The notes below the pieces were generated by a model. It saw only the letters and a program-made list of their open reading frames with translations, searched no databases and was not told where the DNA came from. 64,000 bases of DNA, from contig NZ_VAHN01000007.1 of the NCBI RefSeq assembly GCF_005796205.1, positions 1-64,000 on the forward strand. Direction: 5' to 3'. Within the stretch, counting starts at the first letter, position 1, and the number at the start of each line of letters is the position of its first letter. This DNA is from Pseudarthrobacter sp. NamE2 (GTDB taxonomy: Bacteria > Actinomycetota > Actinomycetes > Actinomycetales > Micrococcaceae). Below, one piece after another: positions 30,117 to 35,605 of the stretch. The translations under genes and the position numbers were made by a program.

Positions 30117-30864
30117 ATGCGCAGTTCGACGCGCCGATCACGGAAAATGGGCCCGGAGGCCTTGGTTGAGAAGAAGCCCTTATATGTTCAGCTCATGAAA
30201 GAAGGGCACTCAAACTCGGCAGCATGCAGGAAAGTTCAGCAGGCGGCCGCGATCCAGGACCAAGGTAAAGCCACGCCAGTACATCACTGATGCCCTGAAG
30301 ATTGCTGACCGCCCTGCCCACATTGCTACCAGGGAAGAAGCTGGCCACTGGGAAGGTGATTTCATCATGGGGAAGGGGAACAAATCAGCGATAGTGACGT
30401 TAGTGGAGCGATCTTCCCGGTTCCTCATCGCCTTTGTGCTCCGCCCGGGAAACAGGTCCGACAACATGCGTGACCAGCTCATTCAGGCGCTCGGGGTCAT
30501 GCCGGCCACGCTCCGGAGGACCTTGACGTGGGACCGTGGCTCCGAGATGGCCGAGCACGCCGAGGTCGCTGCGGCGCTGGGGACGCTGGTGTACTTCTGT
30601 GATCCGGCCAGCCCTTGGCAGCATGCATCTGACGAAAACGCCAACGGTTCGCTCCGCCAGTACTTCCGAAAGGGAGATGACCTGAGCACCCTAGAACCGG
30701 CAGATGTCCTGTTCGCCGCTGAGGAGATCAACAGCCGGCCCAGAGCCGTCCTGGATTGGTCCAGCGCAACTGCCAGATTCGCCGCCCACCACACGGCTGC
30801 GGCAACGCGAGGCCGAAGGAGTAGCAGAAGCACTCCGGCTGCGGCTCTTGCTACTTCTGGCTAG
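30117..30864 (+). pseudogene. IS30-family transposase, internally deleted and frame-shifted
   Basis: The N-terminal piece (30117-30235) reads EKKPLYVQLMKEGHSNSAA, the usual helix-turn-helix start of IS30-type transposases. The C-terminal piece (from about 30244) reads RSRTKVKPRQYITDALKIA, HWEGDFIMGKGNKSAIVTLV and then the DDE catalytic core (DRGSEMAEH; ASPWQHASDENANGSLRQYF with the third acidic residue). The two parts are in different frames and the middle of the protein is missing, so it is dead. The end is also altered: the normal EEINSRPRAVLDW is followed by an unrelated Arg/Ser-rich tail. The right terminal repeat was not found. Confidence 0.85.
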
Positions 30865-31519
30865 CGTTATCGAGCAGCTGCCTGAACTGCGCTTCGCTGT
30901 CCAGAATGAGCTTTTCGCCGTCAAGGAAGAAGGTGGGAGTGCCTGTCACGCCAAGTGCTTTGCCATCGGCAATGTCCTGGCGGATGCGTTCCTTTGTTTC
31001 TTCTGCCGCGACCTCCGTGTCGTACTGGCTCATGTCCAGGCCCAGCTCTTCGGCGTAAGTCCTGAAGAGCGTGGCCTGGGAGTCTTGCTTTTCGCCCCAT
31101 TGAGGCTGGGTCTCGAAGAGCTTGGCGGCCATCTGTTCGTACTTGCCCTGTTGGGCGGCGGCTTCGACGGCGAGGGCGGCGGTGCCTGAGTTCGCATGAC
31201 CTGGCAGGGGGAAGTAACGGTGAATGAAGGTGATCCGGTCCCCGTATTCCTGCTTCAGTTTCTGCACTAGGGGCTCGGCCGAGCGGCAGGATTCGCATTC
31301 GAAGTCCAGGAACTCGACCAGCTGGGCCTTCTCAGTGACGGGGTTCGTGACGCGGTGACTGTTCTCCCGCATTAGCTGAACGTCGCCGGCTTGAGGCGCG
31401 GCGGGCGTTGGCTTGTTTGTGGAGACCACGGCGTACCAGATCACCCCGGCAGCGAGGAGGAAAGCGAGGATCGTCCAGATGGCGATCCGAACGTTCCGTG
31501 CGGTGGTTACAGCGCTCAC
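30851..31519 (-). CDS. DsbA/thioredoxin-like secreted protein
   Basis: A 222-residue membrane-anchored protein. One N-terminal helix (about 10-34) is followed by an extracellular DsbA-type thioredoxin domain. The active site is CESC (near 75-78) instead of the usual CPHC of DsbA, and the cis-Pro lies in TGTPTFF near 198. It is the third gene of a CmtR-like/CDF/Dsb operon, starting at a GTG that overlaps the transporter stop by 4 nt. Probably handles thiols on the outside, perhaps for the metal system. Confidence 0.85.
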   Translation of the reverse strand: MSAVTTARNVRIAIWTILAFLLAAGVIWYAVVSTNKPTPAAPQAGDVQLMRENSHRVTNPVTEKAQLVEFLDFECESCRSAEPLVQKLKQEYGDRITFIHRYFPLPGHANSGTAALAVEAAAQQGKYEQMAAKLFETQPQWGEKQDSQATLFRTYAEELGLDMSQYDTEVAAEETKERIRQDIADGKALGVTGTPTFFLDGEKLILDSEAQFRQLLDNASQK

Positions 31520-32340
31520 CGGTCGGGCGGCTTCGTTCCGAGGGTCACGGACACCGTCGCGGGTTTCCTATCGGCTTGGCAGCCGGCGCAGCAGGCCCCT
31601 TCCTGCTCCTCAGGGGCAGAAACCGCGGCTTCCGCAGGGCTGCTTGTTGAGGCTGCTGGGGCGCAGCAGTCATCGTCCTCTTCACCGTGGCCATGGGCGT
31701 CGCCGCTGGCGTGGGGAAGGGCGCAGCAGGCCTCCCCGCGCCAGGCATTGATGCCCTCACGGACCGAGATGCCTGCGATAACCAGGGCGGCGCCTGCGTC
31801 GGCCCACCACCAGCCCAGGGTGCTGTTCAGGACCAGGCCGACGAGCAGGACGGCGGAGAGGTATGTGCACAGCAGTGTCTGTTTGGAATCGGCCACAGCT
31901 GTCCGGGAACCCAGTTCCCGCCCTGCCCGACGCTGGGCCCAGGACAGCACGGGCATAATCGCCAGGCTCAACGCTGCGATCACGATGCCGGGGACAGAGC
32001 GCTGAGCTTCTTCACCGCCCGTTAGTGACGCAACAGCGTCCATGGTCACGAACGCGGCGAGAGCGAAAAACGAGATAGCAATGATCCGCAGCGTCAGGTG
32101 CTCGCGCCGTTCGGGATTCTTCGAGGAGAACTGCCACGAAAGTGCCAGGGCAGAGGTCACCTCGATAATCGAGTCCAATCCGAAACCGATCAAAGCTGAA
32201 GAGTCGGCAATGTTGCCGGCCCAGAGCGCGACGACGGCTTCAATGACGTTGTAGGTGATGGTGGCGGCCGCGAACAGCCGGATGCGGCGGTTCAGCACGG
32301 CACCGCGTTCCGGGGTGGGTGCCTGCAGCAGCGCGGTCAT
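31516..32340 (-). CDS. CDF-type cation transporter with Cys-rich tail
   Basis: A 274-residue cation diffusion facilitator-like protein. About six helices carry FGLDSIIEV (residues about 51-59, the first metal-site Asp in helix 2) and WWWADAGAALVIAG in helix 5. The C-terminal 70 residues leave the membrane and hold three CC pairs, a HGHGEEDDDCC run and CCAGC. This tail replaces the usual CDF cytoplasmic domain and looks like a metal buffer. The ATG at 32340 overlaps the regulator stop by 4 nt; a second ATG at 32349 is possible. Zinc, cadmium or lead export is inferred. Confidence 0.86.
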   Translation of the reverse strand: MTALLQAPTPERGAVLNRRIRLFAAATITYNVIEAVVALWAGNIADSSALIGFGLDSIIEVTSALALSWQFSSKNPERREHLTLRIIAISFFALAAFVTMDAVASLTGGEEAQRSVPGIVIAALSLAIMPVLSWAQRRAGRELGSRTAVADSKQTLLCTYLSAVLLVGLVLNSTLGWWWADAGAALVIAGISVREGINAWRGEACCALPHASGDAHGHGEEDDDCCAPAASTSSPAEAAVSAPEEQEGACCAGCQADRKPATVSVTLGTKPPDR

Positions 32341-32663
32341 ACGAGGCATTCCCCGTCCGGTGCGCAGCAGGCCGGATCAACAGCGAGGACAACACCCAGC
32401 AGATCCTTAATCGCGTGGCCTAGCCGCGCGTCAGCGAGCTCGTACCGCGTCCGCCGCCCGTCAGGGACAGCAACCACCAGGCCACAGCCACGCAGGCAGG
32501 TCAGGTGATTGGACATACTCTGCCGGGAGACGCCAAGGGTATCAGCGAGGTCGGACGGGTAGGACGGAGCATCTGAAAGAGCCAAGAGGATCCGAGAACG
32601 GGTAGGGTCCGAGACCGCATACCCAAACCGGGCCAACACCGGTGCCTGCGTGAGCGTTTCCAT
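32337..32663 (-). CDS. ArsR-family metal sensor, CmtR-like
   Basis: A 108-residue winged-helix repressor. The recognition helix region is GVSRQSMSNHLTCLRGCG. The two cysteines in CLRGC and cysteines in the tail (ACCAPDGEC) match the positions used for Cd/Pb binding in mycobacterial CmtR (two in alpha-4, one near the C-terminus). It heads the transporter-Dsb operon and probably represses it until metal binds. The CmtR label is by cysteine pattern, so treat the metal as inferred. Confidence 0.88.
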   Translation of the reverse strand: METLTQAPVLARFGYAVSDPTRSRILLALSDAPSYPSDLADTLGVSRQSMSNHLTCLRGCGLVVAVPDGRRTRYELADARLGHAIKDLLGVVLAVDPACCAPDGECLV

Positions 32664-34239: not shown

Positions 34240-34797
34240 ATGAAACACCACGTGGGCGCAGGCCTCGCCATCCTGGCCCTTTCCGCAGTCCTGACTGCCT
34301 GCGCCGGCGGTACGGGAACCGCGCCGGCAACCAGTCCTGCCGTCACGGCGGGCTCGCCTGCCGCCTCTGCGACGGCCCCCGCCGCTTCCGTTTCACCGCC
34401 TTCGGCAACCTCCACCACCACGGCGAGCGCCGCCGTCGACCTCATGACAGCGTCCTCCAGCGCCGGTGAGATCGTGGTGGACGGCAAGGGCATGAGCGTC
34501 TACTTCTTCACCAACGATGTGAAGGATTCCGGAACCAGCGCCTGCACGGATGCCTGCCTGGCGGCGTGGCCGCCCGTGGTCACTACTTCGGCCACTCCTG
34601 CCGCCGAGGGCGTCACGGGAACGCTGGGCACCATCAACACCCCGGACGGCAAGATGCAGGTCACGCTGAACGGGATGCCGCTGTACTACTTCGCCAAGGA
34701 CACCAAGCCTGGTGACGTCCTGGGCCAGGGCGTCAACGGCGTCTGGTACCTGGCCGACCCGGCAGGCGGAATGATCATGACGGGCGGTGCCGGCTAG
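34240..34797 (+). CDS. Secreted lipoprotein with repeat YxFxxD-type domains
   Basis: A 185-residue lipoprotein. Signal peptide with lipobox LTAC (Cys21), then a 45-residue Ala/Thr/Ser/Pro linker. Two copies of the Lipoprotein_15 repeat follow: GMSVYFFTNDVKDSGTSACTDACLAAWPP and GMPLYYFAKDTKPGD (about residues 83-112 and 147-161), recognised by the aromatic YxFxxD core and a CxxxC pair. Function unknown; relatives are surface proteins. The divergent ECF sigma factor probably drives it. Confidence 0.85.
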   Translation: MKHHVGAGLAILALSAVLTACAGGTGTAPATSPAVTAGSPAASATAPAASVSPPSATSTTTASAAVDLMTASSSAGEIVVDGKGMSVYFFTNDVKDSGTSACTDACLAAWPPVVTTSATPAAEGVTGTLGTINTPDGKMQVTLNGMPLYYFAKDTKPGDVLGQGVNGVWYLADPAGGMIMTGGAG

Positions 34798-34846
34798 GAA
34801 GCAGATGCAGCGCGCGCCCAGCCGGTAAAGCGGGCCGCAGGCGCCT

Positions 34847-35605
34847 TCACCGCAGTGGAACTGCGGGGAGCGTTTCCGGCAGAGGCAGATCTGACGGGCC
34901 GGGAACGGGCACCTGCGGCTGCTGGCCCACCCCGTTGGTCAGGTCCTTGGGGACGGCGGTGGGCAGGTCCTTGACCACGGGCAGTTCCTCCGGCTTGCCG
35001 GGGGCTGCGGGGGTCCCGGTGGCCTCTTTTGCGGTCTCCGCCGGCGTGGCAGGAACGGCCGACGGCGGCACCTGGCCCGGCTGCGCGGCCCCGGCGGGAT
35101 CGGTGGGAACCACTCCCGGGGCGGCAGGGCCGGACGGAGCCGGCAGCAGGGGTTCCTCTGCGCGGTCTTCGGCGGGCGCCGGGCTTGATCCGGTGACGAA
35201 CGAGGTGATGGCCCGGTTGAACTGGGTGAACGAGTCGCGGAGGCCCTGGTCCGAGGCTACGGCCACTGCGCCTCCGGCGGAGAGTGAGACCGCCACGGAC
35301 AGGGCCGTGAGGGCTACGCGCCGCTTGGCGCGGCGGCGGGCGGCGAGTTCATCGACGGGCGCACTGACAACCGTGTCTGCTGCGGGCGCCTCACCGGTGG
35401 CCGCTGCCGTCACGTCGGGAAATGCCGGCGCCTGCTTGGCCCGCGCCAGCAAGGCGGCTACTTTTGCGGACGGCTCCGGGGTCCCGGTACCCAGCGCGCG
35501 GAGCTGCAGGAGGGCGGGGCGGAGCTGGCCGTCGTCGTCCAGTCCTGCCTCGAGCAGCAGCTGGTCGACGAATCGGTCGCTGCGGGATCCTGCGGTGTCA
35601 CTCAT
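34847..35605 (-). CDS. Putative anti-sigma membrane protein (partner of the second ECF sigma factor)
   Basis: A 252-residue protein. The N-terminal cytoplasmic part (about 1-95) carries a basic RRRAKRRV stretch before one membrane helix (about 96-116). After it a Pro/Ala/Val-rich, acidic, low-complexity outer region runs to the end. No zinc-finger HxxxCxxC motif is visible, so if it is an anti-sigma factor it is of another kind. Overlap of 8 nt with the upstream sigma gene supports that role. The exact family is not recognised. Confidence 0.7.
   Translation of the reverse strand: MSDTAGSRSDRFVDQLLLEAGLDDDGQLRPALLQLRALGTGTPEPSAKVAALLARAKQAPAFPDVTAAATGEAPAADTVVSAPVDELAARRRAKRRVALTALSVAVSLSAGGAVAVASDQGLRDSFTQFNRAITSFVTGSSPAPAEDRAEEPLLPAPSGPAAPGVVPTDPAGAAQPGQVPPSAVPATPAETAKEATGTPAAPGKPEELPVVKDLPTAVPKDLTNGVGQQPQVPVPGPSDLPLPETLPAVPLR

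Follow-up and report, generated by a model that had tools for sequence, protein, structure and literature searches.

Gene organization of the locus

The whole stretch of DNA analysed here (hereafter the window) comprises 64,000 nucleotides (nt) of Pseudarthrobacter sp. NamE2, positions 1 to 64,000 of contig NZ_VAHN01000007.1. On its minus strand it contains three tightly packed genes, in the order cmtR-like, cdf and dsbA-like, which encode a predicted metal-sensing repressor, a divergent transporter of the cation diffusion facilitator (CDF) family and a membrane-anchored thiol oxidoreductase. These genes probably constitute an operon that controls its own expression and confers resistance to thiophilic divalent metals, combining export, most likely of Cd2+/Pb2+, with extracytoplasmic thiol protection by the DsbA-like protein. 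The features of the locus are the following.

32337..32663, minus strand: cmtR-like gene for an ArsR/SmtB repressor of 108 amino acids (aa), with cysteines at positions 56, 60, 99, 100 and 106
31516..32340, minus strand: CDF transporter of 274 aa with six transmembrane (TM) helices and without the C-terminal domain (CTD); PF01545, 46.8 bits
30851..31519, minus strand: DsbA-like membrane-anchored thiol oxidoreductase of 222 aa, GTG start; PF13462, 80.6 bits, and PF01323, 68.4 bits
32674..32690, minus strand: proposed CmtR operator, dyad ATACA-N8-TGTA, 10 nt ahead of the cmtR start codon
31867..31881, minus strand: QxxxC site in TM5 of the CDF transporter (Q154, C158), in place of the canonical HxxxD according to alignments
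31519..31731, minus strand: cytosolic Cys/His/acidic tail of the CDF transporter, residues 204-274, with an invariant CC at 205-206 and pLDDT <50
31286..31297, minus strand: DsbA active site CESC (C75-C78); the cis-Pro motif GTPTF is at residue 193
30367..30864, plus strand: transposase relic (rve integrase core, PF00665, 39.2 bits, residues 3-83 of 165) that adjoins dsbA and lies outside the operon

The genes had been described as overlapping by 4 nt each, and both the coordinates and the overlaps (32337-32340 for cmtR/cdf, 31516-31519 for cdf/dsbA) hold, with cdf starting at the ATG at 32340. The longest cdf open reading frame (ORF) begins at 32349, giving a 13-nt overlap with cmtR; the orthologs instead align from the methionine at 32340, and, of the 78 loci (80 examined) in which cmtR matches on the same strand, 62 allow a cdf start that yields the 4-nt overlap. 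Compared with five orthologous loci (L023-L027), the ratios of nonsynonymous to synonymous substitution rates (dN/dS) are low for cmtR (0.025-0.079), cdf (0.107-0.156) and dsbA (0.078-0.111), with dS above 1 for L027, indicating that all three genes are under purifying selection and that the trio is not a chance arrangement. The gene order and the overlaps suggest that the trio is expressed as one transcript.

The CmtR-like sensor and its candidate operator

The cysteine pattern of Cd/Pb sensors that the original prediction had recognized in the repressor is present, namely the CLRGC motif (C56/C60) and three cysteines near the C-terminus (C99, C100 and C106). The best match in the PDB is CmtR of Mycobacterium tuberculosis (Rv1994c, 2jsc; E 1.2e-28), a Cd/Pb sensor of the same ArsR/SmtB family with the CLRGC pair and cysteine near the C-terminus. 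C56 and C60 align with the Cys pair of the 2jsc metal site, which we take to be C57/C61 in CmtR numbering. The protein passes the general HTH_metalloreg model (62.5 bits, cut-off 55); given that it scores under the curated CmtR cut-off and that the third Cys ligand is aligned without certainty, we denote it only as CmtR-like. It further differs from the M. tuberculosis protein in being linked to a CDF transporter, whereas the latter is presumably linked to a P-type ATPase.

The dyad ATACA-N8-TGTA was found in 63 of 71 regions upstream of cmtR, in 62 of these at 10-12 nt before the start codon. The set consists of the window and 70 of the 80 nearest CDF loci; the other 10 were dropped because they had no cmtR match or one that started elsewhere than at residue 1-2. 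The eight regions without the exact dyad contain, by eye, a near form (GTACA-N8-TGTA or ATTCA-N8-TGTA) in the same place, and the chance frequency estimated from shuffles is 0.00014 per 130-nt region. In the 4.04 Mb genome (64 contigs), the exact dyad matches once and the reversed control pattern twice, and rarity was therefore dropped as evidence; the case for an operator comes from the fixed position across loci. The trio operon is predicted to be the main target of its own repressor, which would bind the dyad. Two places in the genome carry the relaxed pattern RTACA-N8-TGTAY, a frequency matched by the controls: one belongs to the operon and the other falls within an ORF of contig C63. The latter occurrence, a perfect near form of the operator, GTACA-N8-TGTAC (L239:1501-1518; G000:C63:183352-183369), is probably due to chance.

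A CDF transporter with an altered transmembrane site

The transporter passes the Pfam model PF01545 (46.8 bits, gathering score 26.6) and misses the superfamily cut-off of TIGR01297 (52.6 versus 82.35 bits), which is why we class it with a divergent CTD-less branch and not with the classical CDF proteins. In the AlphaFold model (mean pLDDT 64.5), the TM part mostly scores 70-86 and the tail below 50, and the best fold match is YiiP (8f6k_B; Z 19.6, root-mean-square deviation 4.0, 193 residues aligned), so that the six-helix transmembrane fold is shared with the YiiP/FieF family. In contrast to YiiP/FieF, the protein has no CTD, carries a Cys tail, and has G52/D56 and Q154/C158 in place of the DD-HD quartet. 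By the positive-inside rule, both of its ends are cytosolic.

Residues G52, D56, E60, Q154, C158, C205 and C206 are invariant in all 81 sequences (the window and the 80 nearest loci), as is the WAD motif in TM6, and TM5 contains QxxxC in 81/81 instead of the canonical HxxxD. As read off the printed alignment with YiiP, Q154/C158 stand opposite H155/D159, and G52/D56 opposite D47/D51, which we take to be the metal-site positions in YiiP numbering. In the neighbouring classical CDF type, an ExxxD motif aligns with Q154/C158, with a weak score. Apart from the seven cysteines of the tail, C158 is the only cysteine of the transporter.

The altered site extends well beyond the nearest relatives. Matches to the transporter at E 1e-15 were detected in 83 of 296 genomes of the phylum; of the 30 loci returned, weaker matches being left out, the 28 beyond the genus of the window (L190-L217) all retain D56, E60 and QxxxC or ExxxC, judging from the printed motifs. 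Five relatives hand-picked among 80 plasmid records (A. agilis, Lentilactobacillus, Alicyclobacillus, Sulfitobacter and Alteromonas) likewise have Cys, by eye, as the second TM5 residue, with E, C, C, D and D, respectively, at the first position. Classical CDF proteins have HxxxD or DxxxD in TM5 (PMC1868760, PMC5703985), and the quartets named in PMC5703985 are HD-HD, ND-DD, DD-DD, DD-HD, EN-HD, HH-DH and HD-(E/H)D, cysteine being described there as rarer. CTD-lacking CDF proteins, which resemble the present one in the absence of the cytoplasmic domain, are numerous, with a function 'still unclear' according to a review (PMC6465983), and include MmCDF3 (named in PMC4995437, where Russell and Soulimane 2012 is cited). 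Neither the altered TM5 site nor the operator was raised in the original prediction.

That prediction had described a transporter lacking a normal CTD and carrying three CC pairs plus an HGHGEEDDDCC run. The missing CTD and the three pairs (205-206, 225-226 and 250-251, followed by C254) are confirmed; the run itself holds the second CC pair and is thus not additional. The 71-residue tail contains seven cysteines (P ~7e-7 at an assumed Cys rate of 0.7%) and, taken alone, is much less constrained, being 57-69% identical across the compared orthologs. Its length among the 81 sequences, as cut, ranges from 17 to 100 residues, with one of 187 (a probable frameshift), and the CC immediately after TM6 is constant; the 28 distant loci encode a short C-terminus that in many, not all, ends in CC or another Cys. 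The tail might serve to gather metal. It was also considered as a substrate of the DsbA-like protein; this was rejected on topology, the tail being predicted to lie inside and the DsbA domain outside.

Recurrence of the three-gene order

The sensor gene accompanies the transporter gene in almost all of the nearest loci: of these 80, a few of which come from one genome, 78 have cmtR ahead of cdf, with its stop codon no more than 75 nt from the CDF match. The closest loci that bear a name are from Arthrobacter and Pseudarthrobacter. The dsbA gene is found on the same strand within 700 nt downstream of cdf in 15 of the 80 loci, five of which (L023-L027) share the 4-nt cdf/dsbA overlap; in another seven it lies 700-2500 nt downstream, and L030 contains a remnant. 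Among these loci, L049 is a split one, and L095 and L097 nearly duplicate each other. The overlaps of the trio of the window are reproduced on plasmid pNtRootA2-1 (L104); on plasmid 3 of FB24 (L103) the genes follow in the same order, and cdf and dsbA, as annotated, overlap by 1 nt. The search of other genomes for the three-gene order, suggested along with the original prediction, thus shows the neighbours to be conserved in L023-L027, L104 and L103. On a CDF tree of 100 rows, presence of an adjacent dsbA requires 14 changes, compared with a mean of 26 in shuffled labels. The tree is a quick one in which many branches are poorly supported and L218 sits on a very long branch; near copies are included and L180 is left out. 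Rows L139-L174 were chosen for holding DsbA, so the tree yields no frequency.

Two of these loci deserve mention in their own right. In L095, from a contig titled Vibrio cholerae 35D, the CDF protein is identical in 214 of 215 residues to that of Arthrobacter sp. B1805 (L097) and groups on the tree with A. agilis pAAG24-152, most likely reflecting contamination or mislabelling. At L218 (4959-6484, on A. agilis plasmid pAAG24-85), the gene immediately ahead of DsbA encodes a CTD-less but divergent CDF protein (~38% identical), and CcdA, VKOR and TlpA come after DsbA.

The DsbA-like protein and its neighbourhoods

The DsbA-like protein is signal-anchored, with a TM segment at about residues 14-32 and a thioredoxin fold; its assignment to the DsbA/thioredoxin domain is based on PF01323 (68.4 bits), CESC and the cis-Pro motif GTPTF. 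Its only two cysteines are those of the active site. Of 78 aligned DsbA proteins, 77 retain the CxxC motif and one has a gap there; the motif takes the form CE[SAG]C in 73 of the 78. Truncation by the adjoining transposase relic was considered and rejected because the alignment with orthologs extends to residue 221 of the 222. Relatives in the PDB are DsbA-like proteins and, further down the list, Scs (suppressor of copper sensitivity) or copper-resistance proteins. The Scs systems resemble the present one in coupling an extracytoplasmic thioredoxin-fold enzyme to metal tolerance (PMC5524982), a likeness that is drawn here from function and the PDB listing, no search for an ScsB partner having been made. 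They differ in dealing with copper in Gram-negative hosts, as opposed to the CmtR-like sensor and CDF transporter found here, with VKOR in relatives.

The original prediction regarded a thiol oxidoreductase in a metal-export operon as unusual, and this does not stand: the same DsbA subfamily follows CmtR-CDF, ArsR-CDF and CadA/LspA units, often with VKOR behind it. Among 149 genomes of the family to which the window belongs (Micrococcaceae), searched at E 1e-40, the CDF protein is encoded in 56 and DsbA in 39, and DsbA is present in 24 of the 56 genomes with the CDF protein versus 15 of the 93 without it (Fisher p 4.9e-4, kinship ignored). Gene neighbourhoods were counted around 40 of 49 DsbA matches, after exclusion of the two from the own genome and of the seven weakest ones; the 40 loci include near copies or loci of the same genome, for example L142/L143, L147/L148 and L160-L162. 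The nearest tested gene within 500 nt upstream on the same strand is the CDF transporter described here in 10 loci, a classical CDF in 10, CcdA in 5, LspA in 2, CmtR in 2 and CadA in 1, with none in 10. Downstream of DsbA, VKOR is found in 22 loci and a cytochrome oxidase assembly gene in 3, with none of the tested genes in 15. The linkage to VKOR, a DsbA oxidant, suggests that the protein may act as a disulfide oxidase. The genome of the window encodes one VKOR, outside the window.

The same associations appear in thirteen annotated plasmid stretches hand-picked from 468 records with DsbA and 80 with the CDF protein. CadA-LspA islands with DsbA are present on pSI-1, pMK-1 and p232, a classical CDF with DsbA on pASPHE301, FW306-05-C and FB24 plasmid 1, the present CDF with DsbA on FB24 plasmid 3 and pNtRootA2-1, and DsbA with VKOR on plasmids of Kocuria, Corynebacterium and Rhodococcus and on two A. 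agilis plasmids. The cadA-lspA islands of Arthrobacter plasmids share with the window the same DsbA subfamily downstream and differ in the exporter, a P-type ATPase, and in the regulator, another ArsR protein. In this family, DsbA is thus placed behind three kinds of metal exporter.

A small thioredoxin-like protein linked to the transporter

An apparently cytosolic thioredoxin-like protein of ~104 residues with invariant CPN, GSP and CR (CPNS...GSPS...CRxY) is encoded within 2.5 kb after this CDF gene in 16 of the 80 loci (L048:5847-6158 and 15 others), in 12 of which its gene starts no more than 4 nt from the CDF stop codon. Either DsbA or this protein is found at 32 of the 80 CDF loci, and it might be an alternative or additional thiol partner of the transporter. 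The protein scores 62.9 bits against the NCBIfam DF family selenoprotein model (cut-off 70) and reaches only E 0.08 with Pfam Thioredoxin_3. Its structural model is confident (pLDDT 92), with weak fold matches, some SelW-related, and none at E 0.001. The search of the own genome, run without a positive control, gave no match. An apparent CDF-thioredoxin fusion in L047 (5001-6164, a 387-aa ORF) was not used, since it is probably a frameshift at a GGGGG run, with TGA-CC-GTG in another frame.

Genomic context

The operon and the adjoining transposase relic occupy a slot between trmB and a sigma/anti-sigma factor pair. The neighbouring sigma factor was found in 12 other genomes, all of the same genus, of the 19 searched (the own genome included); trmB and the sigma/anti-sigma pair flank an operon-free slot in 10 of these 12 loci, and in the other two trmB is outside the stretch and no operon is seen either. 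A slot that lacks the operon in these relatives and is filled with it and a transposase relic in the window fits acquisition of the operon in this genome. In L024 (9483-10821, P. oxydans USM2), homologs of the secreted protein and lipoprotein genes of the window (34240-35605) are located ~3 kb from the trio, and the region near the trio is perhaps an insertion hot spot. The genome also contains a cmtR-CDF pair on contig C34 (L008:5406-6408) and a CDF gene on contig C15 (L009:4074-4741), which were rejected as functional paralogs, the former being frameshifted and the latter broken by a stop codon; neither has DsbA in the stretch fetched.

Proposed mechanism and alternatives

Under the proposed mechanism, the CmtR-like repressor would occupy the dyad 10 nt before its own start codon and would be released by metal bound at CLRGC and the C-terminal cysteines, whereupon the three overlapping genes would be translated together. 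The CTD-less transporter might collect metal via the cytosolic CC tail and hand it to the transmembrane site around D56, E60, Q154 and C158 for export. The membrane-anchored DsbA, facing outside, would maintain the oxidised, folded state of exported proteins and thereby prevent metal that is now outside from capping their thiols, and VKOR, encoded elsewhere in this genome, would presumably reoxidise DsbA. In Escherichia coli, loss of dsbA results in Cd and Zn sensitivity, which has been ascribed to metal binding to free thiols (PMC7598926, citing Rensing 1997 and Stafford 1999), and dsbA mutants of V. parahaemolyticus are reported to be Cd-sensitive (PMC6531988). Loss of plasmid DNA in strain D11 of FB24 is accompanied by high sensitivity to Pb, Zn and Cd (PMC2751784). 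A literature search of titles and abstract openings, with subscription papers mostly outside its reach, revealed no work joining this CDF protein, DsbA/VKOR and CmtR.

Several observations weigh against this scheme. The FB24 phenotype is unspecific to the trio because the three plasmids carry other metal genes. The sensor scores 133.8 bits against the NCBIfam CmtR model NF047906, under the curated equivalog cut-off of 150, and the placement of its third Cys ligand is uncertain, the 2jsc alignment stopping at residue 98. The single genomic match of the dyad is within chance level. The transmembrane site (site A) is placed by sequence alignment alone, with a weak phmmer score (29 bits), and the profile comparison of the two CDF types (A1/A2) gave a weak match over TM3-TM6 only (probability 20%). 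No VKOR gene is adjacent to the trio in the window, CcdA, a partner in the reductive pathway, precedes DsbA in 5 of 40 loci, and 57 of the 80 nearest CDF loci have no DsbA on the same strand within 2.5 kb downstream.

This last count, together with the 10 of 40 DsbA loci lacking any tested gene within 500 nt upstream, would suit a scenario in which the function resides in the CmtR-CDF pair, DsbA being a general envelope oxidase that moved along with metal genes and has no metal-specific role. Such a scenario appears unlikely given the 4-nt dsbA overlap kept in the window, L023-L027 and L104, the repeated occurrence of the same DsbA behind three exporter types, and the clustering of the DsbA label on the tree (14 versus 26 changes, with rows partly chosen for DsbA and near copies included). 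It is similarly improbable that DsbA is a surface isomerase, reductase or direct metal binder akin to ScsC that mends proteins damaged by metal instead of oxidising new ones: VKOR is directly downstream in 22 of 40 loci and the protein has no cysteines outside the active site, notwithstanding the Scs and copper-resistance proteins among its PDB relatives, the CcdA genes directly upstream in the five loci noted above and the reported contribution of ScsC proteins to copper resistance as isomerase or oxidase (PMC5524982).

The CDF fold of the model and the Frankia CmtR/SrnR-like regulators, which may share an operon with a CDF named CzcD (PMC4531530), are consistent with export of Zn, Co or Ni, as in classical CDF proteins, under a sensor for those metals; the loss of the TM5 His and Asp in favour of an invariant Cys and the CLRGC pair of the sensor make this quite unlikely. 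It is highly unlikely that the protein no longer transports metal and acts as a sensor or partner protein, as might be surmised from a quartet with both TM5 residues replaced and one in TM2 changed to Gly, because D56, E60, the TM6 WAD motif and CC are all invariant, the gene is under purifying selection and it is the sole exporter-like gene of the operon. We accordingly retain export of thiophilic metals combined with thiol protection as the probable function of the operon.

With rather less confidence, at somewhat below an even chance, CTD-less CDF proteins with an invariant transport-site Cys (D-E / [Q,E,D,C]xxxC), many with a terminal CC, might form a separate branch of thiophilic-metal exporters that spans at least three phyla and in Actinobacteria is joined to DsbA (often with VKOR), and thus to envelope disulfide formation, under the control of a single Cd/Pb sensor that would switch on export together with thiol protection in a common response. 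Cd-sensitive dsbA mutants and the copper Scs systems provide a precedent for linking export with envelope oxidative folding. The present analysis supplies one branch of CTD-less CDF proteins with a regulator and its proposed binding site, a likely class of substrates and a changed transport site. If the proposed scheme is correct, metal resistance in actinobacteria would treat the export of metal and the oxidative folding of envelope proteins as a single task.

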